Positions 10,928-64,000 of a DNA stretch of 64,000 nucleotides are shown here, one piece after another. The DNA lies in the NCBI RefSeq assembly GCF_900129125.1, contig NZ_FQVJ01000001.1, positions 1 through 64,000 of the forward strand, read 5' to 3'. The notes below the pieces were generated by a model. That model was not told the origin of the DNA. It searched no databases and saw only the letters and a program-made list of their open reading frames with translations. A program made the translations under genes and the position numbers. Within the stretch, counting starts at the first letter, position 1; every line of letters starts with the position of its first letter. The stretch comes from Acidocella aminolytica 101 = DSM 11237 (GTDB lineage: Bacteria; Pseudomonadota; Alphaproteobacteria; Acetobacterales; Acetobacteraceae).

Positions 10928-10954
10928 ACCCGGGTTTGATCTGACAAGTAAAGG

Positions 10955-12158: not shown

Positions 12159-12188
12159 GTCTCCGTCTTTTTGCCGTAATACAAGGCT

Positions 12189-12233
12189 AGGCAGGATGAG
12201 CGCTACGAATTGTAATCCTGCCTGCAGATGCGT
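12189..12233. repeat. Inverted repeat in the dnaJ-lipoprotein gap
   Basis: AGGCAGGAT (12189-12197) and ATCCTGCCT (12225-12233) are perfect 9-nt inverted arms separated by 27 nt. No T-run follows, so a terminator is doubtful. It may be a leader structure of the next gene. Confidence 0.35.
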
Positions 12234-12303
12234 TGCCGCACCGGGAGGGGGGATCTAAATTCAGCGGTCTTTGATAACTTCTTGTCTGGAACAGGAGTTT
12301 TGA

Positions 12304-12822: not shown

Positions 12823-12847
12823 AGCGAAGACCGCTCAAGGCGGCTCT

Positions 12848-46250: not shown

Positions 46251-46265
46251 AAAGGGGCGTGTTTA

Positions 46266-47585: not shown

Positions 47586-47657
47586 ATAATATGTCTGGCG
47601 TCGTGAGGTGAGAACAGCAAAAAAACGACTGTGGGCCAAGCGTAAGACGGAAGCACC

Positions 47658-48521: not shown

Positions 48522-48548
48522 GGCATATTATCCATTTATCCACTGATG

Positions 48549-48561
48549 ATGATTTGATCAT
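48549..48561. promoter_or_regulatory. Palindrome between lysR and the EamA gene
   Basis: ATGATTTGATCAT has perfect 5-bp arms (ATGAT/ATCAT) with a 3-bp centre, in the expected position for a LysR site. Confidence 0.45.
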
Positions 48562-48617
48562 TTAATTTCCAAATATCAAGAGGTCTCGCCATATCGGGGT
48601 GGCACAGGAGACTCACC

Positions 48618-49547: not shown

Positions 49548-50350
49548 CATGGCTGAAACTCACGTTGATTGGCGGGCCGACCGCGCTCATCGAGATTGGT
49601 GGCTTTCGGTTGCTCACTGACCCAACCTTTGACGCGCCGGGAGAATATTCTCTTCCGCATGTGACGCTCGTCAAAACGGCCAATCCTGCCGTAAGTGCCG
49701 ATGCCATAGGAAACGTGGATGCCGTGCTGCTCAGCCATGACCAGCATGCAGACAATCTGGATCATGCTGGGCGGGACTTTCTGGCAACGGCAAATCGCAC
49801 GCTGACGACTGTCACCGGTGCCGGCAGGCTCGGCGGGAACGCGGAAGGGTTAAAACCGTGGGACAGTGTGACGCTGACGAAGCCGGATGACAGCCAGCTC
49901 ATCATCACCGCCACGCCCGCGCGCCACGGGCCGGCGGGGATCGAGCCGTTTGCCGGAGACGTGATTGGCTTCGTCCTGACCCTGGGGGATGACGACGAAG
50001 CATCCGTCTATATTACAGGCGATACCGTCTGGTATGAGGGTGTCGCCGAGGTGTCGCGGCGATTCAAACCGACGGTTGTCATGCCCTTCGCGGGCGCGGC
50101 GCAAACGCGCGGGCCATTCCATCTGACGATGAACGTCAATGACGTGATCGAGACCGCCGCGGCCTTTTCCGATGCGGTCATTGTCCCGTTACATTTCGAT
50201 GGCTGGCGGCATTTCAGCCAGAGCGGGGAGGATATGGAAAGGTCCTTTGCTGCACTCGGTATTGGTTCCCGGCTGTTCATGCTCAAACCGGGCGTGCCTA
50301 CGAAAATAGGGTTGTCGGTTTCAGGGAGACACGTCGAGAAAAACTCATGA
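49544..50350 (+). CDS. MBL-fold metallo-hydrolase (UlaG-like)
   Basis: 268 aa. LLTDPTFD, the metal motif LLSHDQHADNLDHAG, TPARHGPAG, ITGDTVWYEG and IVPLHFDGW mark a metallo-beta-lactamase fold of the UlaG-like group. The first motif ends in Asn rather than His (H-x-x-H-x-D-N). Coupled to the transporter, it may hydrolyse a compound that is then exported; no substrate can be named. Confidence 0.85.
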   Translation: MTWLKLTLIGGPTALIEIGGFRLLTDPTFDAPGEYSLPHVTLVKTANPAVSADAIGNVDAVLLSHDQHADNLDHAGRDFLATANRTLTTVTGAGRLGGNAEGLKPWDSVTLTKPDDSQLIITATPARHGPAGIEPFAGDVIGFVLTLGDDDEASVYITGDTVWYEGVAEVSRRFKPTVVMPFAGAAQTRGPFHLTMNVNDVIETAAAFSDAVIVPLHFDGWRHFSQSGEDMERSFAALGIGSRLFMLKPGVPTKIGLSVSGRHVEKNS

Positions 50351-50799
50351 CCCCCCACTGCCAATGGGTTCGGTCACCTCAATATAAGAGGGTAGGGGAC
50401 GTGATTTTAATACCCCGAAAAAGGAAACCGTGCTGTCGGATTTTTTGAAATCGGCCAGGCACGAAACCCACGATAATTCTGTTTCTGTCGGCGCGGGTGT
50501 CTGGCAAGTGATATTGCCATAATTGCACGGGATTAAAATATGTCCCTGCGCCAACACGACGGCATTATTTATTATTGGCGCGGCATTCAGACGGTGGTGG
50601 TCCAACCCGCTTGGAAGCGATCCACCTTTGATGTAGTTTTGTTTTGGAGGACGAACTGCGTGATCTGGTCGTCGCGGAGGCTGAAGTAGAAACTCAGGAT
50701 CAGCGGATCGGGCAGACCGGCTTTCTCGTATCAGATCAATGGATCGGAACATTTCCCGGCCTCGATAATTGAGAGCTTGGGGGAGCTCCAATGCCTTTA
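50351..50799. other. Gap without a supported gene
   Basis: About 450 bp. One minus-strand frame of 148 codons spans it, but its composition (Arg/Ser/Pro-rich, no family) looks non-coding. A short plus-strand segment near 50655-50750 looks once-coding but is not recognisable. Confidence 0.4.
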
Positions 50800-51642
50800 T
50801 TACAAGACGGCGAGCGGTTGTTTGCGGCGCGGGGACGGGTATGCCGCGTCGATTGCCGCCAGATCCTCCGTGGTCAGTTGAATGCGAGCGGCGGCGGCGT
50901 TTTCGCGGACATGCGGGAGGGAACCGGACTTCGGTATTGATATCGTCGCGCCGTCCCGGATGCTCCAGGCCAGGGCCACCTGCGCCGCTATTGCATTATG
51001 CCGTTTGCCGATTTCGGTGAGAGTTGGGTTGTGCAGCAGGCTGCCTGTATGCCCCAGCGGGGAGTAGGCCATGATCGACATCGAACGGGAGCGGCACCAG
51101 GGCAGTAGGTCGAACTCGATACTGCGCGTCTCCGGATTGTAGAGTATCTGGTTGGTCGCGCAGTTGCCGCCGCCGGGCAGTTGCGTGAGTGCCGCCATGT
51201 CATCGGTGTCGAAATTGGAGACACCCCAGGCGCCGATATGCCCGGCGTCACGCAGGCGCTCGAAGGCTTCCACGGTTTCAGCCAGAGGGTGGGGGCCGGG
51301 CCAATGCAGCAAGTAGAGGTCGATATGTTCAGTCTGCAGGCGGCGCAGGCTTTGCGTGCAGGCGCGGGGAAGCCCCATGGCGGAAGCGTTTTGCGGATGT
51401 ACCTTGCTGACCAGGAATAGTTTATCGCGCCGCTCTGCGATGGCCTGGCCGACGATTTTTTCGGCGCCACCGTCGGCATAGGCTTCGGCGGTGTCGATCA
51501 GGGTCATGCCGAGCTCGATGCCTGTCTGCAGGGCGGTGACCTCCGCCTTCGCGCTGGCGGCGGTTTCGCCCATGTACCAGGTGCCTTGCCCTAGGGCGGG
51601 AACGCTTACACCGTTGGGCAATTTGACGTGCGGCATTGTCAT
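50800..51642 (-). CDS. Aldo/keto reductase
   Basis: 280 aa, AKR TIM barrel. The catalytic tetrad is visible: Asp and Tyr in DTAEAYADGG, Lys in FLVSKVHP and His in YLLHWPG. It continues with WGVSNFD and SIPKSGSLPHVREN (cofactor). It is the last gene of the leftward amide-catabolism operon and probably reduces an aldehyde or ketone made in the pathway. Confidence 0.9.
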   Translation of the reverse strand: MTMPHVKLPNGVSVPALGQGTWYMGETAASAKAEVTALQTGIELGMTLIDTAEAYADGGAEKIVGQAIAERRDKLFLVSKVHPQNASAMGLPRACTQSLRRLQTEHIDLYLLHWPGPHPLAETVEAFERLRDAGHIGAWGVSNFDTDDMAALTQLPGGGNCATNQILYNPETRSIEFDLLPWCRSRSMSIMAYSPLGHTGSLLHNPTLTEIGKRHNAIAAQVALAWSIRDGATISIPKSGSLPHVRENAAAARIQLTTEDLAAIDAAYPSPRRKQPLAVL

Positions 51643-51668
51643 GACGGGATCACCTTATTGTCAAATGA

Positions 51669-52463
51669 CTACCAGCCGTGCAGGCGCCCGCCGCTGACAT
51701 TCAGCACGCTGCCGCTTGTCCAGCTTCCGCCGCTGCCCGCGAGATAGAGGCAGGCGCGGGCGACCGGGTCCGGCCCGACGATCGGCAAAGGGTAATTGGC
51801 GACCTCGAAGGTAATTTCCTCCTCGATCATTGGTTCGCCTGTGCCGATGGAGCCGGGAGCGACCGCGTTCACCAGCACATTATGCTGCTCAAGCTGCTTG
51901 GCAAGGCCGATGACCATGCCGATGACGCCGGATTTCGCGGCGTTGTAGGCGCAGGAGGTGCTGGCTGAGCCGATCTTGGCCGACACTGAGCTGATCAGGA
52001 TGATCCGCCCCTGCCGTTTTTCGATCATTTCCGGGATGACGGATTTGGCGCACCAGAAGGAGCCGTTCAGGTCGACATTGATGATGCGCTGCCAGTGCGA
52101 ATCGTCGAGTTCCCAGGCCAGCCCGCGCGGAGCGTCGATGGCTGCGGCGTGGACGAGGATATCGACAGGGCCAAAGGCGGTGCGGGCAGCGTCCGTCATC
52201 GCCCGCACGGAGTCGGGATTAGAGATATCGACGGGTATGGCCTGGATCGAGGCACCGGTGGATTTGATGTCTTCGACCACAGCGCGGAGTGCCTGCTCGC
52301 GTATGTCAGCGGCGGAGACATGCGCGCCGGCGGCGGCGAAATGGCGGGCGACGCAACCGCCGATGCCACCGGCGACGCCAGTGACGATGACGTGCTTCCC
52401 GGCGAGGTCGGCCGATACGGTGCCGGGCGGAACCTGCGGCTGTGGAAACGGGCTGGATATCAT
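51669..52463 (-). CDS. Short-chain dehydrogenase/reductase
   Basis: 264 aa. VTGVAGGIGGCVA (cofactor), the active-site Ser in ILISSVSAKIG, YNAAKSG (Tyr, Lys) and VAPGSIGTGEPM. One bp separates it from the racemase-superfamily gene, so they are translated together. Its substrate is unknown; the partners suggest a hydroxy or keto intermediate. Confidence 0.88.
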   Translation of the reverse strand: MISSPFPQPQVPPGTVSADLAGKHVIVTGVAGGIGGCVARHFAAAGAHVSAADIREQALRAVVEDIKSTGASIQAIPVDISNPDSVRAMTDAARTAFGPVDILVHAAAIDAPRGLAWELDDSHWQRIINVDLNGSFWCAKSVIPEMIEKRQGRIILISSVSAKIGSASTSCAYNAAKSGVIGMVIGLAKQLEQHNVLVNAVAPGSIGTGEPMIEEEITFEVANYPLPIVGPDPVARACLYLAGSGGSWTSGSVLNVSGGRLHGW

Positions 52464-52464
52464 G

Positions 52465-53217
52465 TCAGATTGCCTTTCTCGTTTGATTCAGCCAAGGTTT
52501 TTGGAAGAGGCTGCCCCATCCTGTGACTAGGTTGGTCGGGATGCCGGCGATGCGCAGGCTGCCCCAGACGGCCGTGGAGACCGTGTCGTAAACGGGGATG
52601 CCGTATTCCTGTTCCAGCGGCTCGGCCAGGTGCGCGGCGCGCAGGTTCGTGCAGATGACCGCGATCGCGTCAGGCTTGTGCAGGGCGACTTGTCGCGCGG
52701 CATCGAGGATCGTTGCGTCACCGACCTCGGCGAAGGAGAAATTCTCCTGCAGGCGGAAATGAACCTCTGACGCGCAGCGATAGCCTAACCCTTCGTATGT
52801 GCTGAGAATCCGGGCCTGAACATCGTCAGTGTACGGCGTAATCAAGCCGTAATTCCGCACGCCGGAGGCGGCAAAAACTTCATTGAGGGCGAGCATGGAT
52901 GTTGTCGCCGGAATGCCGGTGGCAGCCTTGATACGGCGGCAGAGTGTCTCGTCGCGTTCAAGGCCGAGCCAGCCGGAGGAGGTGCCGTTCCAGGCGATGA
53001 CATCGACGCGCGCCTCGGCCAGTCGCTCGACGGCCTGCATGATCACGTCTTCGTCGAACTGAGCCAGCATTTGCTCCTTGAGAGAAATCTCGACGACGCG
53101 GAAGCGTGAGAAATGCACGCTGACATGGGGTAGCCCGGCGACGATGCGGGTGCTCATGGGTTCGAGAACGGTGTTGGAGGACGGCGTAAGCATGCCGAGC
53201 CTGACATTGGAAGGCAT
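52465..53217 (-). CDS. Asp/Glu racemase-superfamily enzyme (maleate isomerase/arylmalonate decarboxylase-like)
   Basis: 250 aa. LGMLTPSSNTVLEP near the N terminus is typical of maleate cis-trans isomerase relatives, and ICTNLRA near residue 190 gives the second catalytic Cys. The first Cys of racemases and isomerases is absent: the strand reads AWNGTSSGW. By memory this matches the Gly-Thr-Ser of arylmalonate decarboxylase, which also uses a single Cys. A decarboxylase or lyase role is therefore as likely as isomerisation. Part of the leftward operon. Confidence 0.75.
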   Translation of the reverse strand: MPSNVRLGMLTPSSNTVLEPMSTRIVAGLPHVSVHFSRFRVVEISLKEQMLAQFDEDVIMQAVERLAEARVDVIAWNGTSSGWLGLERDETLCRRIKAATGIPATTSMLALNEVFAASGVRNYGLITPYTDDVQARILSTYEGLGYRCASEVHFRLQENFSFAEVGDATILDAARQVALHKPDAIAVICTNLRAAHLAEPLEQEYGIPVYDTVSTAVWGSLRIAGIPTNLVTGWGSLFQKPWLNQTRKAI

Positions 53218-53256
53218 AAGCAGAAGACCTTTTGTTGTGACGGGCGCTGAAAAATT

Positions 53257-54795
53257 TTAGAAGCGTGAGCTTTGGCGGTAATGCGGAACATGGTCCGCGG
53301 GGTTGAAATAATCCTTATAGAAGGCCCGGACATGGGGAAGGATGAGGTGCGCGAGGTTACGGCGCTCCAGTTCCTCCGCGTTGAGCGGGCGGCGCAGGCG
53401 GCCGGCAAGCTCGTGCAGCATCGCGCTTTGGTCGATACGAGTGAATTTCCCGTCCTGATAGAGGATTTCGCCTTCCACCATCACGGTATTCACCCCTTGC
53501 GTTTTGGCGCGTTGCAGCACGGCGTCTAGCACCGGGGTTTCCTCGTCGAGATAGGGGAAGCTGATTTGCGACCAGTTGATCATGACAAGGTCGGCCGCCA
53601 TGCCGGGGGTGAGCGTGCCGATCTCTGACCCGTAAGGCGTGGTGAGGGCGCCGCCGGCCGTCGCCATGCGGAGTACTTGGCCCATGCCCGGCACGTCGTC
53701 CCCCATGCCAGGGGTACGGTGCGCGCGCAGTACCATGCGCATCTCCTGCAACATGTCCCGGTCGTCGTTGATGCCGGCTTCATCGATGCCGATGGCGACG
53801 TTGACGCCTTTTTCCTCCAGGCGGTTGAGAGGGGCGATGCCTGAGCGAAGGCGGAAGTTCGAGCTGCAATTATGGCATACATGCACGCCGTTACCGGCAA
53901 GGCACTCTATGTCACCCTCGCTCAGCCAGACGCCATGGCCAAGCGTAAGGCGGGAATTCAGCAGGCCGAATTTTGCCAGATAATCCACGGCCGTGCCGCC
54001 GCCCCGGCGCTTCGCATATTCTTTCTGGTAGGGGGTCTCCAGCAGATGCATGTGCATCGGCACGTCGTGCCGGGCGGAGGTTTCGGCCAGGAGTTCCAAC
54101 GCCGCGTCGCTGCACCAATGCAGGTTGGCTGGCGCGAGTTGCAGGCGCACGCGGGATTTTCCGTGGTGCGTCTTACGCAACTGCTCGAAAAGCTGCACCA
54201 GATCGGCAGCGCCGAGTTGAAACCTGCCGAAATGGCGCTGAAGCGCCGGCTTGATGTCATCGGGAACGCTTGCGGTGAATGCGTCGTTGGGGCCGTAGAC
54301 GAGGTGGTTCTGGTCGCGCAGTGCGTAGCAGTAGGAGACGCGCATGCCGATCGCCTCATAGCCGCGAATGACCTCGTTCGCGGCATGTTCGATCTTCGGT
54401 AAATCGCCCGGTACCCAGCCGTGGATATGCTGGACTGTCGTGACGCCGGAGGCGATCATCTCGAAGGCAGAATAGAGCGTGTCGAGGTAAGGATCGACCT
54501 CGCGCGTGACCATGCGCGTTGCGAACCATAGCTCCAACGGCATGTCGGGCGAGCCCAATTGCACAGGCGTCAACCCGACATGGTGATGCCCGTTGACGAA
54601 GCCTGGCATGACGACATGGTTGCCGGTGCCGATGACCGGCAGATTGGGGTACTTCGCCGCCAGCGCTACGAAATCACTGATTTCCTCAATGCGGCCGCCG
54701 CGTTGAAGGATTGCGCCATTCTCGATGATTTGCGCGGTGTGACGGCCGAGGGCGCGGGTGATGACGTATTTGCCGCGAATGATGGAACTGGTCAT
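53257..54795 (-). CDS. Amidohydrolase, ATZ/TRZ (cytosine/hydroxyatrazine-type) family
   Basis: 512 aa, longer than typical (about 450) because of a C-terminal tail with PHVRAFYKDYFNPADHVPHY. Metal ligands are NGHHHVG (HxH), HMHLLE, LTLGHGVWLS and GIDEAG (Asp). The enzyme would remove an amine or open an amide bond on an N-heterocycle in the cytosol. It overlaps the ATPase gene start region by 4 bp and belongs to the leftward operon. Confidence 0.87.
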   Translation of the reverse strand: MTSSIIRGKYVITRALGRHTAQIIENGAILQRGGRIEEISDFVALAAKYPNLPVIGTGNHVVMPGFVNGHHHVGLTPVQLGSPDMPLELWFATRMVTREVDPYLDTLYSAFEMIASGVTTVQHIHGWVPGDLPKIEHAANEVIRGYEAIGMRVSYCYALRDQNHLVYGPNDAFTASVPDDIKPALQRHFGRFQLGAADLVQLFEQLRKTHHGKSRVRLQLAPANLHWCSDAALELLAETSARHDVPMHMHLLETPYQKEYAKRRGGGTAVDYLAKFGLLNSRLTLGHGVWLSEGDIECLAGNGVHVCHNCSSNFRLRSGIAPLNRLEEKGVNVAIGIDEAGINDDRDMLQEMRMVLRAHRTPGMGDDVPGMGQVLRMATAGGALTTPYGSEIGTLTPGMAADLVMINWSQISFPYLDEETPVLDAVLQRAKTQGVNTVMVEGEILYQDGKFTRIDQSAMLHELAGRLRRPLNAEELERRNLAHLILPHVRAFYKDYFNPADHVPHYRQSSRF

Positions 54796-55568
54796 TGAGT
54801 GCTCCCCAGGGCAGCGCGAACGGTATGCAAGACTGAACTTCTCAATTTCAGAAACTCGGGCGACTCGCGTAGCTCTAGCAGACGATCGTCGCCAATCTGT
54901 GCTGTGACATCAATATCCTCTAGGATTGAGGCTGGGCGCTGGGAGAACACGATGATGCGGTCGGCGAGATAGACGGCCTCCTCGACATCATGTGTGACGA
55001 AGATGATCGTTTTGCGCTCTTCCTTCTGGATACGGCGAAGCTCCACCTGAAGCTGCTCGCGCCTTTGCGCATCGAGCGCGCCGAACGGTTCGTCCATGAG
55101 CAGAATCTCTGAACCAGCCGCCAGGGTGCGTGCGATGGCGACACGCTGACGCATGCCGCCCGAGATACGGTTGGGATAACTTGCTGCAAAATTCGATAAT
55201 CCGACAAGCTCAAGATAGTGCTGGGCGCGGTCGCGCTTTTCCGTTTTCGTCAGGTCGTGCCGGAACCTCATGCCGAACGCAACATTCTCCTCCACGGTGA
55301 GCCAGGGGAAAGAGGAATAGGATTGGAAGACCATGCCGCGGCGGCTGTCCGGCTCGCCGATGGCTTCGCCTTGCAGCGCGATCATCCCCGTGCTCGCCGT
55401 TTCAAGTCCGCCGACCATGCGCATGAGCGTGGTTTTGCCGCAGCCCGAAGGGCCCAAGAATACCATGAACTGATGATGCGGGATGGTGAGGCTAAACGGC
55501 GGGGAAATGACATCGAGGTTACCAAATGTCTTGGTAATGTCATTGAACTGCAGGTACGGCATGGTCAT
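54792..55568 (-). CDS. ABC transporter ATP-binding protein (SsuB/TauB/nitrate type)
   Basis: 258 aa. Walker A GPSGCGKTT, Q-loop, signature ISGGMRQRVAIAR, Walker B EILLMDEPFGALD and switch HDVEEAV. It powers import with the permease whose stop overlaps its start. The substrate-binding protein is not beside it but in the divergent operon at 59121. Confidence 0.95.
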   Translation of the reverse strand: MTMPYLQFNDITKTFGNLDVISPPFSLTIPHHQFMVFLGPSGCGKTTLMRMVGGLETASTGMIALQGEAIGEPDSRRGMVFQSYSSFPWLTVEENVAFGMRFRHDLTKTEKRDRAQHYLELVGLSNFAASYPNRISGGMRQRVAIARTLAAGSEILLMDEPFGALDAQRREQLQVELRRIQKEERKTIIFVTHDVEEAVYLADRIIVFSQRPASILEDIDVTAQIGDDRLLELRESPEFLKLRSSVLHTVRAALGSTQ

Positions 55569-56374
55569 GAATGCATGTATCCGAACATCTTTTTGTGAAG
55601 CCGGCGGAGGAGCTGGTCGGTGACGAGGCCTATGATGCCGATCATCACGACACCCGCCATGACCTGGGATGTCTCCATGAAGCGCCGAGCGGTCCAGATC
55701 ACGAAGCCGAGTCCGCTATTGGAGGCGACGATCTCGGCGATGATGAGGTAGGTCCAGCACCAGCCGAGCGTGATGCGGAGATTGTCGACCAGGCTCGGCA
55801 GCATAGCACGGATGGCGACGAGGCGCAGAATTTCGAGAGGTTTGGCGCCTAATGTCGAGGCGATCTCGAAATATTCATGCGGCACGCGATCTGTGTCTTG
55901 CGCGACCATGAGGACGAGTTGGAAGAACGTACCGAGCCAGAGGAGGAAGATCTTCGTCTCCTCGCCGATGCCGAACCAGATGATACTGAGCGGTACGAGG
56001 GCGGGGACGGGAAGGTAGCGGATGAAGTCGATGACCGGCTCCAGACCGGCGCCGATTGGCCGATAGACGCTCATGGCGATGCCGATGGGCACGGCCATAA
56101 TGGCGGAGAGAGCGAAAGCGACGGCGACCCTGGCGATGGAGACGCCCGTATTTGGCAGCAAGTTACCGTTCACGCTCATGTCCCACATTGTGGCTATGAT
56201 GGTGCTGGGGGCGGGCAGGAAGATCGGATTGGTCCAGCCGAGATCGACGGTGATTTCCCACAGGATGAGCAGCGCCAGACATGTTGCGATAGCGATGCCA
56301 TGCGCCACCCATGATGGTAGGGGGCGGCGAAGCGCGAGAAGACGGGGGCTGGTTTTTCGTCCTGGTTGTGCCAT
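55565..56374 (-). CDS. ABC transporter permease (SsuC/TauC type)
   Basis: About 269 aa, six membrane helices. The cytoplasmic EAA loop reads EIASTLGAKPLEILRLVAI, which contacts the ATPase. ATG 56374 has GGAGGG upstream; 16 extra residues of the longer frame are excluded. The dimer with 54792 should import a small organic nitrogen or sulfur compound. Confidence 0.93.
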   Translation of the reverse strand: MAQPGRKTSPRLLALRRPLPSWVAHGIAIATCLALLILWEITVDLGWTNPIFLPAPSTIIATMWDMSVNGNLLPNTGVSIARVAVAFALSAIMAVPIGIAMSVYRPIGAGLEPVIDFIRYLPVPALVPLSIIWFGIGEETKIFLLWLGTFFQLVLMVAQDTDRVPHEYFEIASTLGAKPLEILRLVAIRAMLPSLVDNLRITLGWCWTYLIIAEIVASNSGLGFVIWTARRFMETSQVMAGVVMIGIIGLVTDQLLRRLHKKMFGYMHS

Positions 56375-56471
56375 AGGAATGATCCCTCCATTATCGGCGA
56401 GGGGACGCCCTGTGTCAGCCATTACAATCGATGCTCCATGCTATGCGCTCCGTCTGTATTCATCGTTTGTC

Positions 56472-57254
56472 TTATGAAAGACCGAAGCCTTCGCGCAGCG
56501 CCTTTGTCACCAGCTCCTCATGGTCGCGGAGCATCCACTCCCCGATTTCCGCCCGGCTACCGCGCGCATCGGCAAGAACGCCGGAGGGCGGCACGAGAGT
56601 CTGGTCGAAGGGCAAGCGGTCATAGAGCGGGAACTTCGCCGGGCCATCCGTCGGGATGCGTTCTTGCCGAACGAGGTCCGGGCTGAGGGCGAGCATGAGG
56701 GAGGTTTCGAGCAGGCTTGCATGCTCCAGCTCGGTTCCGGGAAAGCCGTTTGGAAAAATGCGCGTCAGAGTCTCAGGGTATAGGAAATCGCCAAGTTCCA
56801 ACCGGAGCAATACCATATCCGTAATGCCGTCGCGCTTGAGATCGCGCATGGCGAGGTTGAGGCCCTCGACGATCGGCCAGGCATTCTCGAAATGCCCGTT
56901 GATGAGGGCGATGCGGCGCGCACCGTGCTGGCCCAGGTCGCACACGATATCATGGATGACGAGGGCGAGCGTATGTGCATCGAGGCTGGTGGTACCGGGG
57001 AAAGCCTGGCCGCCGCCGGATTTGGGGTGCGACTTATAGCCATAGGCGATGGCCGGCGCGACGATGGCGCCGATGGCTGGTGCGACGCGCTGGCATATTG
57101 ATCTGGGAATGACGACGTCTGTGCCGAGAGGGAGTTGCGGGCCGTGCTGCTCTGTTGACCCTACGGGGATGAGGATGGGGGCGCCAGCGGCGACCTTCTC
57201 CTTCCATTCCGGCCAGGTCATCTGATCCATCAGCATGCATTGAGTATCGGGCAA
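56472..57254 (-). CDS. Creatininase (creatinine amidohydrolase) family
   Basis: 260 aa. PVGSTEQHGPQLPLGTD supplies metal ligands (Glu, His, Asp), then YGYKSHPKSGGGQAFPGTTSLD, INGHFENAWPIVEG (in place of NGHGGN) and LEHASLLETSLMLAL. The segments YGYKS-x3-SGGG, NGHxEN and EHxxxxETSLMLAL are, from memory, those of genuine Pseudomonas creatininase rather than the MftE/FAPy-deformylase branch. So hydrolysis of creatinine or a close cyclic amide is likely. It is the first gene of the leftward operon, opposite the GntR gene. Confidence 0.88.
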   Translation of the reverse strand: MPDTQCMLMDQMTWPEWKEKVAAGAPILIPVGSTEQHGPQLPLGTDVVIPRSICQRVAPAIGAIVAPAIAYGYKSHPKSGGGQAFPGTTSLDAHTLALVIHDIVCDLGQHGARRIALINGHFENAWPIVEGLNLAMRDLKRDGITDMVLLRLELGDFLYPETLTRIFPNGFPGTELEHASLLETSLMLALSPDLVRQERIPTDGPAKFPLYDRLPFDQTLVPPSGVLADARGSRAEIGEWMLRDHEELVTKALREGFGLS

Positions 57255-57311
57255 TGAAAAGCTCCGCTGTTTCGCGATTCGCGTTATGAAGTGGTAGGTG
57301 GCAGTTTAAAG

Positions 57312-57377
57312 CACGAGGTAAACTTAATACGCAATTAGATATTATGAATTAAAATGGCATATTTTTAGATACTCGTG
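57312..57377. promoter_or_regulatory. Inverted half-sites between creatininase and gntR
   Basis: CACGAG (57312-57317) and CTCGTG (57372-57377) are inverted 60 bp apart in a very AT-rich divergent gap. They are possible operator halves for the GntR protein, but short and widely spaced. Confidence 0.25.
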
Positions 57378-57457
57378 CCTTTTGTGATTAATATATAGTC
57401 GTATTATGTTTATTTTTGGGCATTATGGGTATTTTGGAGGCTTATGTGAGGATTAGA

Positions 57458-58186
57458 ATGAGTGCGGAGTCGGCCTTGGACGAGGATCGGGATATGGAGT
57501 CCGGTACGGCTTCGCTGGGTCAGGTGACACCCGTCGTCAGGCTTTCCCTGCATGAGCAGATCGTGACCAAGGTGCGTGAGATGATTCAATTGGGGGAGTT
57601 GCCGCCAGGGGCGACGATCTCTGAAAATGATTTATGCGGCAGTCTTGGTATCTCCCGCACGCCGTTACGTGAGGCGTTGAAGGTGCTGGCATCGGAGAAT
57701 CTTGTCCATCTCCGGCCGCATCGCGCGCCGCTCGTCAGTCCGGTTGATTCCGATGAGATCGCCGAGCTTTTCGAACTGCTCTCGATCCTTGAGCCGGCGG
57801 CGGGCGCGTTGGCGTGCCAGCGTGCATCCTCTTCTGAAATCAATCGCTTGCGCGATATGCACGAGCAGTTGATGGGGCACTATTATACGCGCGAGCGCAC
57901 GCGCTATTTTAGCGACAATCAGGCGATTCATCATGAGATCGTCAGGCTCGCCGGGAACAAGGTAATGCTCGCCACGTACCAGTCTTTGCAGGGGCGCGTG
58001 TTGCGCGCGCGCTCCATGGCGAATCTCACGCAGGCGCGCTGGGCTGAGTCGAGCGCCGAACACGAAGCGCTGATTCGAGCTTTTTGCGAACATGATGATG
58101 CCGCCGTCAGCCGCCTACTCTACGAGCATACGAGGGAGACAGAAGCGGCGGTGCTGCGCGCGTTGAACACGTCAGAAACGGCGTAG
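57458..58186 (+). CDS. GntR-family regulator (FadR/FCD type)
   Basis: About 242 aa. The winged helix (IVTKVREMIQLGELPPGATISENDLCGSLGISRTPLREALKVLASENLV region) is followed by an FCD effector domain with EIAELFELLSILEPAAGALA and HHEIVRLAGN (metal/ligand-binding His). ATG 57458 has TGAGGATT upstream; 14 residues before are possible. It stands between the two divergent operons of the amide cluster and probably represses both until substrate appears. Confidence 0.88.
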   Translation: MSAESALDEDRDMESGTASLGQVTPVVRLSLHEQIVTKVREMIQLGELPPGATISENDLCGSLGISRTPLREALKVLASENLVHLRPHRAPLVSPVDSDEIAELFELLSILEPAAGALACQRASSSEINRLRDMHEQLMGHYYTRERTRYFSDNQAIHHEIVRLAGNKVMLATYQSLQGRVLRARSMANLTQARWAESSAEHEALIRAFCEHDDAAVSRLLYEHTRETEAAVLRALNTSETA

Positions 58187-58194
58187 ACAAAAAT

Positions 58195-58210
58195 TTGGCA
58201 CGGAGCTTGC
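58195..58210 (+). promoter_or_regulatory. Sigma-54 (-24/-12) promoter
   Basis: TTGGCACGGAGCTTGC matches the consensus TTGGCACG-N4-TTGC exactly, with the GG and GC 10 bp apart. It lies 9 bp after the gntR stop and about 120 bp before the SDR gene that heads the rightward operon. No sigma-54 activator gene is in the window; NtrC is a candidate. Confidence 0.8.
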
Positions 58211-58269
58211 CTTAACGATTTTCGTCGACGCGGGTGAAACCGTGTTTCGAAATCGAAAGGCCAAGCTCA

Positions 58270-58335
58270 ATGACGGAAGTTTCTTCCTTATCCTTCAGCC
58301 GATTTACCGTTGATCCACGCAAGCCCGTTATATGA
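58270..58335 (+). CDS. Short upstream ORF coupled to the SDR gene
   Basis: A 21-codon frame starting MTEVSSLSF with GAAAGG upstream. Its TGA stop overlaps the ATG of the SDR gene (ATGA), and the SDR has no ribosome site of its own, so translational coupling is plausible. Confidence 0.4.
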   Translation: MTEVSSLSFSRFTVDPRKPVI

Positions 58336-59081
58336 AGCGGCTGGAAGGGCGGGTTGCCCTTGTCACCGGGGCGGCACGAACCGGCTCCATCGGTAGGGCG
58401 ATCGCGTGGGAGCTTGCACAGGAAGGTGCATGCATCGCGGTCGCGGATTACCGGCGTGAAGATGAAGCACGCGGCTTTGCGGAGGAAATTGAAGAAGCTG
58501 GCGGAAAATCCTCAAACTTTGACGCCGATGTGACGAGCCCGGCGGCATGCGAGGCATTGGTGGCGCGGGTAGCAGCGCGGTTCGGGCGGCTGGACATATT
58601 GGTCAATAATGCAGGGCATTCTCGCCATCAGAAGCTTGAGGACATTACCGAAGCCGATTTTGATGAGATGATCGGACTGCATCTGCGGGGGCCATTTTTT
58701 CTGGCGCGTGCCGCCGCCGTGCATATGCGTGCGGCGGGCTGGGGACGCATCGTGAATATTTCTTCTGAGCAATCTTATGGTGGAGATCCGGAACTACCGC
58801 ATTATACCGCCGCGAAGGCGGGATTGCGGACGATGACAAAATCTCTCGCACTGGCCTTAGCCCCTTGCATCGCCGTGAATACGGTGGCGCCGGGGCCGAC
58901 CGCCACGGACCGTTTCAAGAACGGCCCGGAATATTTGGATGAATTCCGGGAGCGTATTCCGCTGAAACGCTGGGGGGCGCCGCGTGATGTCGCGCGTTCC
59001 GTGCTGTTTCTCGTGACCGATGATGGGGATGCATATACCGGCCAGACGCTTGACCCGAATTGCGGAACCGTCATGCCCTGA
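58332..59081 (+). CDS. Short-chain dehydrogenase/reductase
   Basis: 249 aa. VTGAARTGSIGRAIA is an SDR cofactor motif with a two-residue insert. NNAGHSR, active-site Ser in NISSEQSYGG, YTAAKAG and VAPGPTATDRF follow. The end (AYTGQTLDPNCGTVMP) differs from the usual DGG tail. First full gene of the sigma-54 operon. Confidence 0.88.
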   Translation: MKRLEGRVALVTGAARTGSIGRAIAWELAQEGACIAVADYRREDEARGFAEEIEEAGGKSSNFDADVTSPAACEALVARVAARFGRLDILVNNAGHSRHQKLEDITEADFDEMIGLHLRGPFFLARAAAVHMRAAGWGRIVNISSEQSYGGDPELPHYTAAKAGLRTMTKSLALALAPCIAVNTVAPGPTATDRFKNGPEYLDEFRERIPLKRWGAPRDVARSVLFLVTDDGDAYTGQTLDPNCGTVMP

Positions 59082-59120
59082 TGAGCCTGCTTCACTTTTT
59101 ATAACCTGTAAGGAAACAAC

Positions 59121-60125
59121 ATGAAGTTTCGTCGTATTCTGATGGCAACGAGTGCCGTGTTCCTCGCCGTGGCCGCGGCACTCCCCGCGAAAGCGGATGA
59201 CACGATCCGCGTGTTATCCCCTGTGTGGTCCGGCTTCGCACCGGTCATGGTCGCGCAGGATCTGGGCTATTATAAGAAGGAGGGACTGAATGTCTCCGTG
59301 ACGTTCGAGGATGACGTGCCGACGATCATGGCGGCGCTCAACCGGGGTGATATAGATATGGCGATGTTCACCGTCGGTGAATATCAGGATCTGCCGAAGG
59401 GCCTCACAGGCGGCACCATTATCGGGGAGGTTGATGAATCCCTTGGCGGCGACGGCACTGTTGCCGATGGCTCGATCAAAACAGCGGCGGACCTCAAGGG
59501 CAAGATTCTGGCTGAGTCGCCGACGCTGCCCGCGATGCTGCTGCTGCAGATGGATTTAAAAAAGGCTGGCCTTTCACTTAAGGATGTGCAGTTGCGTGAG
59601 TCCGAAGCGGGGGACGCCGTTGCGATCTTCTCGAACAAGGAAGTCGCGGCTGTCGCCACATCCGAGCCACAAATGTCTCAGACGGTGCAGCAGAACCCGC
59701 AACGCCACCCGCACATTATCAGTTCGTCGGCGGAGTATCCCGGCTATGTCGTGGACATCATTGAAGTCCGCACGGCGGATTTGAAGGCGCACCCGGAGAA
59801 ATATGTGAAGCTACTCACAGGCATGTATCAGGCGACTGCCTATTTTGAGAAAGACCAGGCCGGGTTCGCTAAGCTTGCCGCACCGCATTACAGCCTTTCT
59901 ACGACGGATTTCCTACAGAGCCTGAAGGGCGTACATTATATCGATTACCAGGATGCCGTGGCGGCGCTAGGTAAGCCGGGGAGCCCCGGTGCTCTCTACA
60001 ACATTTTCAATACGATCATGGAGCTGAATCTGGAAAATGGCGCCGCCACCCAGAAGCTTTCTGCGGTCAGTTCTATTGATAATTCCATCATCGCCAAAGT
60101 AACCCCTGAGGCCGTCAAGCAATGA
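59121..60125 (+). CDS. ABC transporter substrate-binding protein (SsuA/THI5-like)
   Basis: 334 aa. A signal peptide (MKFRRILMATSAVFLAVAAA, cleavage after AKA) leads to an NMT1/SsuA-type periplasmic-binding fold (GFAPVMVAQDLGYYKKEGL, NRGDIDMAMFTVGE, LKGKILAESPTLPAMLLL). It is the probable partner of the permease and ATPase genes of the divergent operon. The gene overlaps the next SDR by 4 bp. Confidence 0.88.
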   Translation: MKFRRILMATSAVFLAVAAALPAKADDTIRVLSPVWSGFAPVMVAQDLGYYKKEGLNVSVTFEDDVPTIMAALNRGDIDMAMFTVGEYQDLPKGLTGGTIIGEVDESLGGDGTVADGSIKTAADLKGKILAESPTLPAMLLLQMDLKKAGLSLKDVQLRESEAGDAVAIFSNKEVAAVATSEPQMSQTVQQNPQRHPHIISSSAEYPGYVVDIIEVRTADLKAHPEKYVKLLTGMYQATAYFEKDQAGFAKLAAPHYSLSTTDFLQSLKGVHYIDYQDAVAALGKPGSPGALYNIFNTIMELNLENGAATQKLSAVSSIDNSIIAKVTPEAVKQ

Positions 60126-60823
60126 GTGAAGTCAAGACGATTGTCGTAACAGGTGCGGCCAGTGGAATTGGCCGTGCCGCCAGCCGCAAATTTTTGGCGG
60201 CCGGTCATAAGGTCATAGGGCTCGACATTAATACTGGTGAGGATGCCGTTGTTCCGTTGATTGCGGTCGATCTGCGTGACGAGGCATCGGTGAAGGCGGC
60301 CGTCGCGGAGGTAGTGGAACAGCTCGGTCATATCGATATTCTAGTCAATTGCGCGGGTACGGATGGCGAAGCGCCGCTGCCGGAACTCGACATCAACGAT
60401 TTCGACCGCATATTCGGCGTTAACATCCGCGGTATGTTCCTCATGACACGCGAGACAATCAGGCATATTCCAAAAGGCGGGCGCATCATCAACGTTGCCT
60501 CCGAACTTGGTTTCCTGGGGCGGGCACAAATGTCCTGCTATTGTGCGACCAAAGGTGCGGTCATCGCGGCCACGCGCGCCTGGGCGCGGGAGTTTGCGCC
60601 CGGAATTCAGGTCAACGCGGTGGCGCCGGGGCCGACTAACACACCCTTGCTGCATTTTGATGCGATTCCTGAATCTCTCCGTCAGGAGGAGATGAGCAAC
60701 CCGATGAAGAGGATCGGAGAGCCCGAGGAGGTCGCCGCGGCTATTATTTTTCTGGCAAGCCCGGAGGCGACGTTCATTACCGGGCAATGCATCAATGTGG
60801 ATGGCGGGTCGGCAATGCACTGA
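60122..60823 (+). CDS. Short-chain dehydrogenase/reductase
   Basis: 233 aa, compact SDR. VTGAASGIGRAAS, NCAGTDG, Ser in NVASELGFLG, YCATKGAV and VAPGPTNTPL, ending INVDGGSAMH. It overlaps the binding-protein gene (ATGA) so they are co-translated. Second SDR of this operon. Confidence 0.9.
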   Translation: MSEVKTIVVTGAASGIGRAASRKFLAAGHKVIGLDINTGEDAVVPLIAVDLRDEASVKAAVAEVVEQLGHIDILVNCAGTDGEAPLPELDINDFDRIFGVNIRGMFLMTRETIRHIPKGGRIINVASELGFLGRAQMSCYCATKGAVIAATRAWAREFAPGIQVNAVAPGPTNTPLLHFDAIPESLRQEEMSNPMKRIGEPEEVAAAIIFLASPEATFITGQCINVDGGSAMH

Positions 60824-60865
60824 GGTGCTGCCCTGAATTAAGCTCATGCCGAAGGTGATATTGTC

Positions 60866-62269
60866 ATGAACGGGTTTGACACTGTGATAAGCGGTGGCCG
60901 GATATCCACCGCGTCGGACACATTCTTTGCCGATATAGGTATTAAGGATGGCTGCATCGCCGCGCTCGGTATGGAGCTTGGCGATGCAGCGGAGGTGATC
61001 GACGCGGCCGGGAAATGGGTGCTTCCCGGCGGCATCGACGGGCATGTGCATCTGTCCCAGCCATCGGGTGAGGGCATCGTGATGGCGGATGATTTCGAGA
61101 CGGGTACAAGGTCGGCTGCGTTTGGCGGCAACACGACGATATTACCGTTCTGTCTGCAAGAAAAAGGACGTTCTCTGCACGAGGCATTGAAGGCGTACCA
61201 TGCGAAGGCGGCGGGGAAATGCTATATCGATGTGGCGTTTCATCTGATTATCAGCGATGTAACGGAGACGCTGCTCGGGCAGGAATTGCCAGCTCTGGTC
61301 GAGGACGGTTACACCTCCTTCAAAATCTTCATGACATATGAAGGGTTGGCGCTTAGCGACCTGGAGATGCTCAAGGTCATGGAGACGGCGCGAAAATCCC
61401 GCGCGCTGGTTATGGTCCATGCGGAAAATTACGACGCTATCCGGTTTCTGACTGACAGGCTGGAGCAGTTGGGCAATACGGCGCCGAAGTTTCATGCGGC
61501 GTCCAGGCCGATCGCCGTGGAGAGGGAGGCAACCCATCGCGCCATCGCGCTGGCGGAAATTGCCGATGTGCCGGTGATGATTGTACATGTCTCCAACCGG
61601 GAGGCTATGAATGAGATTCTTCGCGCCCAGGGCAAAGGACTTAAAGTTTTTGGAGAAACCTGCCCGCAATATCTGTTCCTGACGGCGGATGATCTCGATG
61701 GCTTGAATATGGAAGGGGCCAAATATGTCTGCTCCCCGCCGCCCCGTGACCGCGCAAGCCAGCTTGCTTGTTGGGATGGGTTGGAGCGCGGCGTGTTTTC
61801 CATCTTTTCCTCGGACCATTGCCCGTTCCGGTATGACGACCCGAAGGGCAAGCTCGCGCTGCGCGGGCGTACCAGCTTCCGTTGGGTGCCGAATGGGATA
61901 CCCGGCGTTGCCGCGCGTCTACCGCTGCTGTTTTCTGAAGGCGTGATGAAAGGCCGTATCGATATTCATCGGTTTGTCGCCGTGACTGCGACGAACCAAG
62001 CCAAGATGTACGGGTTGGCACCGCGCAAGGGTACGATTGCGATCGGGTCGGACGCCGACATCGCCATATGGGACCCCGAGCGGAAGGTCATGCTGACGCA
62101 TGATCTGTTGCATGACGGGGCCGATTATACGCCTTACCAGGGTATGGAGATTACAGGCTGGCCGCAGCTTACCATGGTGCGTGGTCAAGTTGTGGTACGT
62201 GATGGGATTCTCGAAGGGCCGAAAGATCACGGCATGCACGTGGTCAGAGACCGCAGCGCATTCGTTTAA
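60866..62269 (+). CDS. Hydantoinase/dihydropyrimidinase family amidohydrolase
   Basis: 467 aa. It opens cyclic amides or ureides such as hydantoins or dihydropyrimidines. GGIDGHVHLSQ (metal HxH), TSFKIFMTYEG (carbamylated Lys), VMVHAENYD, IVHVSNREA and SSDHCPFRYDD (metal Asp) are all present, as in D-hydantoinase. Length matches dihydropyrimidinases. Allantoinase is an alternative but the FKIFMTY form fits hydantoinases better. Rightward operon. Confidence 0.9.
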   Translation: MNGFDTVISGGRISTASDTFFADIGIKDGCIAALGMELGDAAEVIDAAGKWVLPGGIDGHVHLSQPSGEGIVMADDFETGTRSAAFGGNTTILPFCLQEKGRSLHEALKAYHAKAAGKCYIDVAFHLIISDVTETLLGQELPALVEDGYTSFKIFMTYEGLALSDLEMLKVMETARKSRALVMVHAENYDAIRFLTDRLEQLGNTAPKFHAASRPIAVEREATHRAIALAEIADVPVMIVHVSNREAMNEILRAQGKGLKVFGETCPQYLFLTADDLDGLNMEGAKYVCSPPPRDRASQLACWDGLERGVFSIFSSDHCPFRYDDPKGKLALRGRTSFRWVPNGIPGVAARLPLLFSEGVMKGRIDIHRFVAVTATNQAKMYGLAPRKGTIAIGSDADIAIWDPERKVMLTHDLLHDGADYTPYQGMEITGWPQLTMVRGQVVVRDGILEGPKDHGMHVVRDRSAFV

Positions 62270-62350
62270 TTACATTTTAATATCGAACATAAATTTCGAC
62301 TTTCGTATTTTACAAAAATAACGGGCGTTTCCCAACAACAGGAGTGATGA

Positions 62351-63526
62351 ATGAAAAAGATGAGACCAGGCTTTGCGCTGGCGGCGGGTGGCTCTCTTCT
62401 CGCTATGCACGGCGCGCTGGCGATGACGCCGCCGGCCTCGATTGATATTGACGGCGGCCCGCTGGGGCAGTTGGAATTTTCCGGCGGTGCAGACGGGTAT
62501 TTTTATGCTCAGTCAGGCACGTCTGGCCGTGGCGAAGCCGGCAATAGCGCTGTTGGTGATAAGACCACGGGCGCGAACCTTGGCAATGCGCTGTTCAAAT
62601 TACAGAAGACGACGGGAACGCTTCAATTTACGTTGGAGATTGGTCCCCAAGGTGGTGCGCCGTTTCTTGGTGTTGTGCCGGCCAAGGGGAGCATTACGGT
62701 CTACCGGGCAAGTCCGATTTATCTTGGTTATATAACGATTTCGCCGCCGGGCTCGCCGGTTACGCTTTCTGTCGGCCAGCTTAACTCTCTTGAAGGGTAC
62801 GAGAGCGGGGAGGATTGGAACAACCCGAACCTGTTCACCAGCGCGCTGCTTTATGTCGAGAACGGGCAGAATGTCGGCGTTTCGGCGACATATACGCATG
62901 GCCCGCTGGCTGCGACGGTTCAATTTGGCGATGGCTGGGACACTCGGGTTTTCAACTTCCTGCAGGCGCTCGTCTCCTACAGCTTCGACAGTAATAATGT
63001 TTTAAGTCTCTATTATGGCGGCGAGCTTGGCCGTACCGGGCTGAACGCGCAGACCTATAATCAAAGCACTGTCGCGGGCTATGGTGCTTACCTCGTCAAC
63101 TCGCAGACATTCGGTGCATATTACATATACACCAACGGCAATCTCAACCTGATTCCCGAAGTGCAGTATGTTTATGCCAAGCCGGACCAGGCGATCGGTA
63201 TCGAGAAATATACAAGCACTTTCGGCGCTGCTGTGTTTGGCGACTATACGTTCGGCTCTTCGCCCTATTCGCTTGGCGGGATGGCTGAATATTTCACCTC
63301 CACCGGCGCGGGCCATTGGTTCATCGCGCCACATGCCGAAGGCTTCGGCCTCTCACTCACGCCGACATGGCAATATAAGGACCTCTTCGTCCGCGCCTCC
63401 GTCGGCTATATGCACCTGCTGAACAAAGGCACCTTCAGCCCGGATGATGGGAATGTCGCCTGGGGAACGGACGGGCGCAGCGCCAATCTGTTCCAAAGCG
63501 GCCTTGAGGCAGGAATTACCTTCTAG
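62351..63526 (+). CDS. Outer-membrane beta-barrel porin-like protein
   Basis: 391 aa. A signal peptide (KKMRPGFALAAGGSLLAMHGALA) leads to a barrel rich in alternating aromatic strands and ending in AGITF, a C-terminal outer-membrane signature. The N-terminal LGQLEFSGGADGYFYAQSG and VGQLNSLEGYESGEDWNN resemble BBP2/OmpL-like putative porins. CAGGAG precedes the ATG. It probably admits the cluster's substrate. Confidence 0.8.
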   Translation: MKKMRPGFALAAGGSLLAMHGALAMTPPASIDIDGGPLGQLEFSGGADGYFYAQSGTSGRGEAGNSAVGDKTTGANLGNALFKLQKTTGTLQFTLEIGPQGGAPFLGVVPAKGSITVYRASPIYLGYITISPPGSPVTLSVGQLNSLEGYESGEDWNNPNLFTSALLYVENGQNVGVSATYTHGPLAATVQFGDGWDTRVFNFLQALVSYSFDSNNVLSLYYGGELGRTGLNAQTYNQSTVAGYGAYLVNSQTFGAYYIYTNGNLNLIPEVQYVYAKPDQAIGIEKYTSTFGAAVFGDYTFGSSPYSLGGMAEYFTSTGAGHWFIAPHAEGFGLSLTPTWQYKDLFVRASVGYMHLLNKGTFSPDDGNVAWGTDGRSANLFQSGLEAGITF

Positions 63527-63600
63527 AATTTAAAACCAATCAAGAAACAAGCATGTCACGCGGCCACCATCTTCTCTCGCCTCAAGAAAAGGAAATTGTC

Positions 63601-64000
63601 ATGTCGGAGTTGAATATGGCGCTCCCTGCGCAGGCGGGAGCCAAGCCTAATGAGCCGGTGAAGGAGTTCGGCCTTTGGTCGGCATTTACACTTGGTTTCT
63701 CAAATATCTCGCCGATTCTTGGTATTTATTCGGTCTTCTCCATCAGCCTCATGTCCGCGGGGCCGGCATTTTTGTGGTCTTTGCCGCTTGTTCTCGTCGG
63801 GCAGCTTCTCGTTGCTTGTGTGTTTGGCGAGTTGGTTTCCCGTTGGCCGTTCCAGGGGAGTGTCTATGCATGGGCGAGCCAGCTTGGCGGCGCGCGATAC
63901 GGGTGGTTTGCGAATTGGGCCTATATATGGGGAATGGTGCTGTCACTCACCTTTTTGGCGCTGGCATCGGCGGGTTATCTGCTGAGTGCAATTGGCGTCA
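63601..64000 (+). CDS. APC-family amino-acid/amine permease, N-terminal part
   Basis: At least 133 codons, running off the window end. FGLWSAFTLGFSNISPILGIYSVFSISLMSAGP and ELVSRWPFQGSVYAWASQLGG belong to the APC superfamily, near GABA/choline-type permeases. AAGGAAA lies 6 nt before ATG 63601; an ATG at 63553 is an alternative. It suggests that a small nitrogenous compound or product is taken up or passed on. Confidence 0.88.
   Translation, partial: MSELNMALPAQAGAKPNEPVKEFGLWSAFTLGFSNISPILGIYSVFSISLMSAGPAFLWSLPLVLVGQLLVACVFGELVSRWPFQGSVYAWASQLGGARYGWFANWAYIWGMVLSLTFLALASAGYLLSAIGV

Follow-up and report, generated by a model that had tools for sequence, protein, structure and literature searches.

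A hybrid gene cluster in Acidocella aminolytica joining a creatininase paralogue to an amidohydrolase-hydantoinase module, with a possible role in cyclic guanidine catabolism

Results

A hybrid cluster of two modules

The first 64,000 nucleotides of contig NZ_FQVJ01000001.1 of Acidocella aminolytica 101 = DSM 11237 (the whole stretch analysed here, termed the window; the contig has 234,992 bases) end in a set of genes for uptake and ring opening that is real, apparently undescribed, and built from two usually separate gene groups. The reading we favour, with a little less than even confidence, is that this locus is a derived hybrid catabolic cluster which would import and open a creatinine-like cyclic guanidine, a deimination/ureide route having replaced the release of urea. 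At its base lie the observed gene content, the likeness to both gene groups, the difference at residue 174 of the creatininase paralogue, the linkage of the relatives of this paralogue to ureohydrolases and the overlap between the genes ATP and AHY.

Two divergent operons flank a single GntR/FCD regulator at the right end of the window (Table 1). The left operon, on the minus strand, is transcribed in the order CRN-PERM-ATP-AHY-RAC-SDR1-AKR, and the right one, on the plus strand, carries GntR followed by SDR2-SBP-SDR3-HYD-porin-APC permease. Every gene was backed by a family match above the Pfam cut-off, and the genes and strands named in the original prediction, made from the sequence alone, were all recovered (three C-N hydrolases, three short-chain dehydrogenases (SDRs), one aldo/keto reductase and one GntR), the APC permease extending past the window end. 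PERM/ATP, ATP/AHY and SBP/SDR3 overlap by 4 bases each, and RAC and SDR1 are separated by 1 base.

A search for conserved neighbourhoods, as had been proposed, returned two separate recurring modules, whose joint layout was seen in the window only. AHY, RAC, HYD and GntR (module A) are interspersed with five genes of module B, and module A stands where the ureohydrolases of module B would be. Compared loci are given below as L numbers.

Module B, a conserved importer-SDR-creatininase-ureohydrolase operon

The more general result is an operon that combines a creatininase paralogue lacking Trp174 with a 3-guanidinopropionase-like ureohydrolase. The order SBP-PERM-ATP-SDRb-SDR3-CRN-AGM_A-AGM_B was found in L196 (congener G006), L197 and L198; all eight genes are also present in the congeners L207 (G032), with one additional predicted open reading frame (ORF) between CRN and AGM_A, and L208 (G015). 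L209, cut short by its contig end, has seven. All told, five of the genomes fetched, including three congeners, have the complete operon. Of its eight genes the window retains five, with identities to L196 of 52% (SBP), 66% (PERM), 69% (ATP), 56% (SDR3) and 61% (CRN). Neither SDRb nor the two ureohydrolases AGM_A and AGM_B were found near CRN in the window, where the best match to SDRb is SDR3 (35%).

The importer with permease and ATPase on the left and binding protein on the right, already proposed as a split transporter, was borne out, since the module B genes kept in the window sit in two divergent operons; SBP orthologues are contiguous with PERM/ATP, CRN and the SDRs in L196, L197, L198, L207, L208, L209 and L166. 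By comparison of these layouts, the transporter is a rearranged importer. Its nearest relatives come from module B operons and from L148; there SBP, PERM and ATP (46, 60 and 72%; 7906-12054) lie directly behind another ATZ/TRZ-type amidohydrolase. A plasmid search with SBP gave no close orthologue (27-34% identity among the matches listed).

CRN searches gave matches in 6 of 249 family genomes (E<=1e-30), 11 of 385 class genomes (1e-60), 4 of 398 phylum genomes (1e-80) and 14 of 38 genus genomes (1e-40; 12 of the 14 with a copy at least 53% identical); these sets overlap and the source genome is counted in each. SDR3 gave matches in 7 of 200 order genomes (1e-60). CRN copies were grouped by neighbourhood, with SDR3 or SDRb near CRN, before residue 174 was read. 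The 20 SDR-linked loci thus defined, the window apart, are a non-random sample, found through similarity to the window CRN or SDR3, with several cut by contig ends and a part of the neighbourhoods fetched. SDR3 was present in 17 of them and SDRb instead in 3 (20 of 20 together, as the grouping requires), AGM_A in 13, AGM_B in 6 and an importer of the window type in 7. Our own gene finder was partly trained on L026, L029 and L032; agreement with their annotation is therefore not independent, and gene starts are approximate.

The three AGM_A proteins compared (L166, L145 and L186) were nearest to the 3-guanidinopropionase GpuA of Pseudomonas aeruginosa (3nip), their closest solved relative, with 444, 443 and 478 bits against 316, 328 and 332 bits for guanidinobutyrase; no such gene is present in the window. 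AGM_B of L196 was nearest to a deposited agmatinase (197 bits). Allophanate hydrolase genes flank the operons of L166 (798.6 bits, cut-off 511) and L144 (749.7 bits, same cut-off), and L166 is also flanked by a urea-type ABC binding protein (562.2 bits, cut-off 333.9), which further points to urea or guanidine nitrogen. A second operon type of the genus, in L145, L212 and L213, consists of a ureohydrolase, an SDR, a protein of 474-482 residues, SDRb and CRN, the CRN of L212 having an internal stop; SDR2 of the window is 39-40% identical to the SDR of these loci.

Three arginase-family genes were found in the source genome. One, on C67, is guanidinobutyrase-like by PDB comparison, and the other two, about 30% identical to the AGM seeds, stand beside a gene that we take to be ornithine cyclodeaminase-like.

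This operon was not found described in the titles and abstracts listed from the literature, mostly without subscription papers. Nothing was found joining creatininase with ureohydrolase, SDR or guanidino terms, and no match joining guanidinopropionase and creatininase was among the matches listed. PMC9772407 compares the guanidino-acid hydrolases GbuA and GpuA, and PMC4617892 mentions creatininase and agmatinase once each.

CRN differs from creatininase at two tryptophan positions

CRN aligns with creatininase structures (239.7 bits to 3a6h) and keeps E34, H36, D45, H120, E122 and H178, the first five of which we take to be metal ligands and the last the base, with numbering and roles after the Pseudomonas putida enzyme. 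The two tryptophans of creatininase at 154 and 174, which presumably lie over the substrate, are Gly and Thr in CRN. The two top PDB matches, presumably point mutants, differ from each other at these two positions. No paper on Trp154/Trp174 of creatininase was found in the literature search.

Residue 174 was T (n = 13), I (n = 6) or Y (n = 1) in the 20 SDR-linked loci and Trp in none, whereas in the 11 CRN homologues found in other surroundings (10 loci) it was Trp throughout. In the 31 compared gene copies, residue 174 covaries with the linked SDR, the distant L094 homologue, with D at 174, being left out; within the W174 group, an SDR with 29% likeness to SDRb lies no more than 5 kb from the L171 copy. 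Position 154 was Trp in 20 of 20 CRN-type relatives and Gly in the window only. In a tree of 21 rows, the window CRN grouped with L165, L143 and L144 at a weakly supported fork (85/87), on a long end branch (0.55).

A third context of the family was seen in L171, L146 and L169, in which creatininase homologues that keep W174 lie near ATZ/TRZ-type amidohydrolases and an ABC importer; neighbours in L171 are annotated as cytosine deaminase and nucleoside deaminase.

The genome holds three members of the creatininase family (PF02633) and a canonical creatinine operon on contig C66 (L149, 50000-66498). The latter comprises creatininase (TIGR04448 333.3 bits, Trp at both 154 and 174), creatinase (600.9 bits to the creatine amidinohydrolase 7yto), serine hydroxymethyltransferase (SHMT, GlyA) and the beta, delta and alpha subunits of sarcosine oxidase, the alpha ORF being cut by the locus end (962.6 bits against a cut-off of 1164). 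Similar operons were seen, by similarity only, in the congener loci L151 and L152. Family scans detected neither creatinase nor sarcosine oxidase among the cluster genes. Their reported absence thus holds for the window and not for the genome.

Module A, an amidohydrolase with hydantoinase and racemase-fold partners

AHY belongs to a clade of ATZ/TRZ-type amidohydrolases of 512 residues. Its metal-ligand positions H70, H72, H250, H287 and D338 are kept and were invariant in an alignment of 40 members, and it is predicted to be a deaminase/iminohydrolase. The AlphaFold model (mean pLDDT 84.0, pTM 0.89, low confidence at 74-85, 310-320 and 339-345) has adenosine-type deaminases, AtzA, TrzN and, at rank 9, the isocytosine deaminase Vcz as fold neighbours; metal positions and modelled fold do not fix the substrate. 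Vcz (7ww2), of the isocytosine/8-oxoguanine deaminases, has the same fold over AHY residues 24-460 but is only about 24% identical, and other deaminases and triazine hydrolases rank equal or higher. Isocytosine deaminases are described in the accessible text of PMC6186785.

A contig scan with AHY gave 471 confirmed stretches, the best 80 of which were kept (52 of these loci at least 15 kb). Among these best 80 of 471, the neighbourhood contained an ATPase (n = 61), an NMT1 binding protein from a different clade (n = 50), a permease (n = 45), a second racemase-fold protein (n = 16), RAC (n = 14, of which 8 in Methylobacterium and one only 29% identical), a PuuE-like protein under the cut-off of that model (n = 9), HYD (n = 8, six at 47% or more and two at 29%), an amidase (n = 5), a DUF1989-type protein (n = 2, L039 and L049) and a distant creatininase-family protein (n = 1, L094). 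HYD, AHY, GntR and RAC occur together in L061 (Paracoccus). L173 (Paraburkholderia largidicola) has GntR (40%), RAC (56%), HYD (56%) and a second racemase-fold protein; at 7743-13450 a compact set of GntR, MFS, RAC, dihydropyrimidinase, racemase-fold protein and DUF3830 was seen, possibly a minimal module A without AHY. In the 38 genus genomes, a match of the AHY clade was found in the source genome only, five others giving weaker amidohydrolase matches (best E 1.3e-33).

Ten annotated plasmid neighbourhoods of AHY relatives were also read. In L035 (Rhizobium leguminosarum plasmid), a 37% AHY relative and a distant creatininase-family gene are no more than 10 kb apart, as are an AHY-type amidohydrolase and such a gene in L094 (Geminicoccaceae metagenome-assembled genome); enzymes of these two types meet in other layouts too. 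In L026 (Burkholderia aenigmatica plasmid, 4973-25539), AHY is accompanied by a CN hydrolase, M20 hydrolases, a racemase, UbiD/UbiX, a Mo-hydroxylase and XdhC; this larger cluster may represent a more complete heterocycle pathway.

HYD is 60-71% identical to the HYD near AHY in L043, L044, L061 and L109, and carries HVHL, KIFM, VHAE, VHVS and SSDH, which we take to be metal and catalytic motifs. RAC exceeds the PF17645 cut-off of the arylmalonate decarboxylase/EutA/maleate isomerase superfamily and scores under the NCBIfam cut-offs for arylmalonate decarboxylase (AMDase; NF052327, 64.3 against 225 bits) and EutA (TIGR02990, 86.5 against 318 bits); ectoine utilisation was rejected on the latter score. 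Its NGTS aligns with GTS in AMDase, and its one Cys (ICTN) is likewise aligned. Because this pattern resembles arylmalonate decarboxylase, RAC may be a decarboxylase or one-Cys enzyme instead of a racemase.

No linked N-carbamoylase was found among the scanned cluster genes. The statement that carbamoyl amidase is absent thus stands for the cluster, while a carbamoylase-family gene occurs unlinked at C84 of the genome (TIGR01879 355.8 bits, cut-off 204). A ureidopropionase-like CN hydrolase gave only two weak matches in the genome to the L029 query (41.9 and 40.3 bits).

Other features of the locus

Among the module loci compared, nothing closely related to SDR1 was seen (best match 34%). AKR contains both DTAEAY and SKV, presumably meaningful motifs of its family. 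The best NCBIfam model of the APC permease was that of urea carboxylase permease (TIGR03428, 139.6 bits), far under its cut-off of 740.45. Inverted repeats at window 57300-57412, AAAGCACGAG/CTCGTGCCTT and TAAACTTAATACG/CGTATTATGTTTA, could be GntR operators. A phage-type integrase and a MobA/MobL relaxase were seen about 2-3 kb beyond the APC gene (contig C68 66931-71305; L004 3931-8305), and an integrated mobile element may border the cluster.

Table 1. Features of the divergent operons, with positions in the window.
Feature	Position	Strand	Support
AKR, aldo/keto reductase, last of left operon	50800..51642	-	PF00248 178.8 bits
SDR1, short-chain dehydrogenase	51669..52463	-	PF00106 170.2 bits
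RAC (module A), arylmalonate-decarboxylase/maleate-isomerase/EutA superfamily (Amdase/Asp-Glu racemase)	52465..53217	-	PF17645 72.7 bits
AHY (module A), ATZ/TRZ-type amidohydrolase (Amidohydro_1)	53257..54795	-	PF01979 147.4 bits
ATP (module B), ABC importer ATPase	54792..55568	-	Pfam; 69% to L196, 72% to L148, 68% to L166
PERM (module B), ABC importer permease	55565..56422	-	Pfam; 66% to L196, 60% to L148, 64% to L166
CRN (module B), creatininase paralogue	56472..57254	-	TIGR04448 320.1 bits, cut-off 235
Intergenic region of divergent operons, inverted repeats	57255..57415		candidate GntR operator/promoters, weak
GntR/FCD regulator (module A type)	57416..58186	+	Pfam; 40% to GntR near RAC-HYD of L173, 35% to GntR adjoining AHY-RAC of L061
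SDR2, short-chain dehydrogenase	58332..59081	+	PF13561 194.4 bits
SBP (module B), periplasmic NMT1-type binding protein	59121..60125	+	PF09084; 52% to L196, 46% to L166 and L148
SDR3 (module B), SDR partner of CRN	60122..60823	+	Pfam; 48-58% to SDR near CRN in 17/20 CRN-type loci
HYD (module A), D-hydantoinase/dihydropyrimidinase	60866..62269	+	TIGR02033 528.7 bits (cut-off 393.25), NF009941 749.9 (cut-off 647)
Outer-membrane BBP2-family porin	62351..63526	+	PF07642 99.6 bits
APC-type amino-acid permease	63553..64000 in window, gene end at contig position 65067	+	PF13520 123.2 bits

Discussion

Proposed chemistry

Creatininase opens a cyclic acylguanidine, and a ureohydrolase frees urea from a guanidino acid. 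In the parent operon of module B, a guanidino compound would be imported, the SDRs would make or prepare a cyclic guanidino lactam, CRN would open it, and the 3-guanidinopropionase-like ureohydrolase would free urea from the resulting guanidino acid. The pairing of CRN with a GpuA-like partner therefore suggests as substrate the six-ring lactam formed by 3-guanidinopropionate, with or without substituents, and the parent operon would be the six-membered-ring counterpart of creatininase plus creatinase. The logic of opening a lactam and then releasing urea is that of the pathway from creatinine over creatine to urea and sarcosine, and CRN is homologous to its first enzyme; the differences are that W174 is replaced in the SDR-linked group, W154 also in the window, and that CRN is partnered by SDRs and, among the 20 relatives, by arginase-fold ureohydrolases in 13, rather than by creatinase.

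For the window, import and an SDR step would give the cyclic guanidine, AHY would exchange its exocyclic imine or amine for oxygen to form a cyclic ureide, and HYD would open the latter. CRN may act on the lactam before or beside these steps, RAC, SDR1, SDR2 and AKR may handle stereochemistry or side chains, and the unlinked carbamoylase-family gene could complete the route. Also in favour of this reading are the arginase-fold gene adjoining AHY in L039 (157 bits with the agmatinase model, just under the cut-off of 174.3), the DUF1989-type genes of L039 and L049, the creatininase-family genes near AHY-type genes in L094 and L035, the importer orthologue of L148 and the place of Vcz among the fold neighbours of AHY. 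The imported compound is most likely a cyclic guanidine lactam, probably six-membered. The hydantoin-like or ureide substrate first suggested is hereby shifted, on account of the 3-guanidinopropionase-like partners, to a guanidino or cyclic guanidine compound; the imported compound is less likely to be a hydantoin-like or dihydropyrimidine ring, which would rather be an intermediate.

A reading that we consider unlikely, although not negligible, is breakdown of a 2-amino-4-oxo-(dihydro)pyrimidine (isocytosine-type) ring by the cluster. By their nearest characterised functions, the three hydrolase types could all converge on such a ring. Dihydroisocytosine is the lactam of 3-guanidinopropionate, which would fit the CRN paralogue and GpuA of the parent operon, and its deamination would yield dihydrouracil, a substrate of dihydropyrimidinase, isocytosine deaminase being a fold neighbour of AHY. 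If true, nature would hold two alternative openings of this ring, one releasing urea and one leading to a ureide, and in the window the ureide opening would have taken the place of the urea-releasing one.

Several findings weigh against a cyclic guanidine route through both modules. No other locus was seen with AHY and a CRN of the window type, the creatininase-family members of L094 and L035 being only 35 and 30% identical, and the combination may be recent or strain-specific. CRN passes the TIGR04448 creatininase equivalog model, which may leave room for creatinine activity, and its Gly154 and long branch could mean a new specificity or decay. AGM_A is missing from 7 of the 20 CRN-type loci, some of them cut by contig ends, and no GpuA-like gene was found among the three arginase-family genes of the genome (C67 compared with PDB, the other two by AGM similarity). 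Only one of the best 80 of 471 AHY loci, L039, has an arginase-fold gene beside AHY, and in a simple motif scan the protein of this gene showed GGDH but no DAHxD. No Rfam family (E<=1) was detected in window 46000-64000, hence no guanidine riboswitch there, nor was one detected in 7 of the other loci, where two ALIL pseudoknots were the only matches. The pseudoknots lie outside the clusters, at L184 13718-13834 and L145 10388-10466.

Alternative explanations

The cluster might instead hold two independent pathways side by side under one GntR and not acting on one molecule, a remnant of module B dealing with a guanidino compound while module A handles a substituted dihydropyrimidine or hydantoin. 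We regard this as possible but rather improbable. Each module is found alone in many genomes, module B stands in the window without its urea-releasing enzymes, and in L173 the stretch read has RAC and HYD but neither AHY nor CRN; however, each of the two operons mixes genes of both modules, ATP of module B overlaps AHY of module A by 4 bases, only 42 bases separate SDR3 (B) from HYD (A), and the orthologous importer of L148 likewise lies behind an ATZ/TRZ-type amidohydrolase. Creatinine, put forward originally as a candidate, was rejected as the main substrate and is unlikely as a substrate of the cluster. A role of CRN as an ordinary creatininase that supplies the creatine route seems highly improbable in spite of its TIGR04448 score (320.1 bits, cut-off 235) and its conserved metal-ligand positions and H178, as creatinine is already served by its own operon on C66, with a creatininase that has both tryptophans missing from CRN, and no creatinase match (E<=1e-20) was found within 9 kb of CRN in 20 of 20 relatives.

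Two further routes are built around enzymes of the HYD type, and we give each of them very little weight. The reductive uric-acid pathway (XdhD, YgfK, SsnA, HyuA, YgeW/UacY, YgeY and YgeX in the accessible text of PMC12507026, which presents ring opening by SsnA and HyuA of E. coli and C. difficile) pairs an ATZ/TRZ-type amidohydrolase with a D-hydantoinase-type enzyme, as AHY is paired with HYD, and a similar route for a purine-derived heterocycle would agree with the Mo-hydroxylase near AHY in L026. Three of the best 80 of 471 loci also have, close to AHY, a gene that we take to be diaminopropionate ammonia-lyase-like. Nevertheless AHY scores far under the SsnA cut-offs (TIGR03314 134.7 bits against 455.5; NF005540 149.1 against 444), on which ground the pathway itself was rejected, no gene of XdhD, YgfK/UacX, YgeY or YgeX type, reductases and downstream enzymes included, was detected among the 13 scanned genes, and CRN and SDR3 would be left unexplained. 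Utilisation of hydantoin or a substituted hydantoin, with RAC as hydantoin racemase and HYD as D-hydantoinase, would suit the D-hydantoinase score of HYD and the superfamily of RAC, but the single Cys of RAC is unlike the two of RACb in L026 (ACFGDPG, GCAGM), a pattern that we assume to mark hydantoin racemases, and RAC was rejected as such an enzyme for this reason. Besides the missing linked carbamoylase, this route, no more probable than the creatinine one, would leave CRN, SDR3 and AHY unaccounted for. Hydantoinase clusters in the accessible part of PMC3546935 have dihydropyrimidinase and carbamoylase, plus hydantoin racemase in some Bradyrhizobium, with no creatininase mentioned there. 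The reductive pyrimidine pathway (dihydropyrimidinase and ureidopropionase) resembles the cluster in that HYD exceeds the cut-off of the dihydropyrimidinase subfamily, yet neither pyrimidine reductase nor ureidopropionase was found among the scanned genes. The view that the cluster matches no known route thus holds for the creatinine, hydantoin, reductive pyrimidine and reductive uric acid layouts compared.

Significance

Many genes annotated as 'creatininase' or 'agmatinase' may serve an undescribed guanidino-compound operon and not creatinine or agmatine metabolism. The cluster yields a short list of compounds as candidate substrates, and the hybrid in the window suggests how a route that releases urea may be exchanged for one of deimination and ureide opening.

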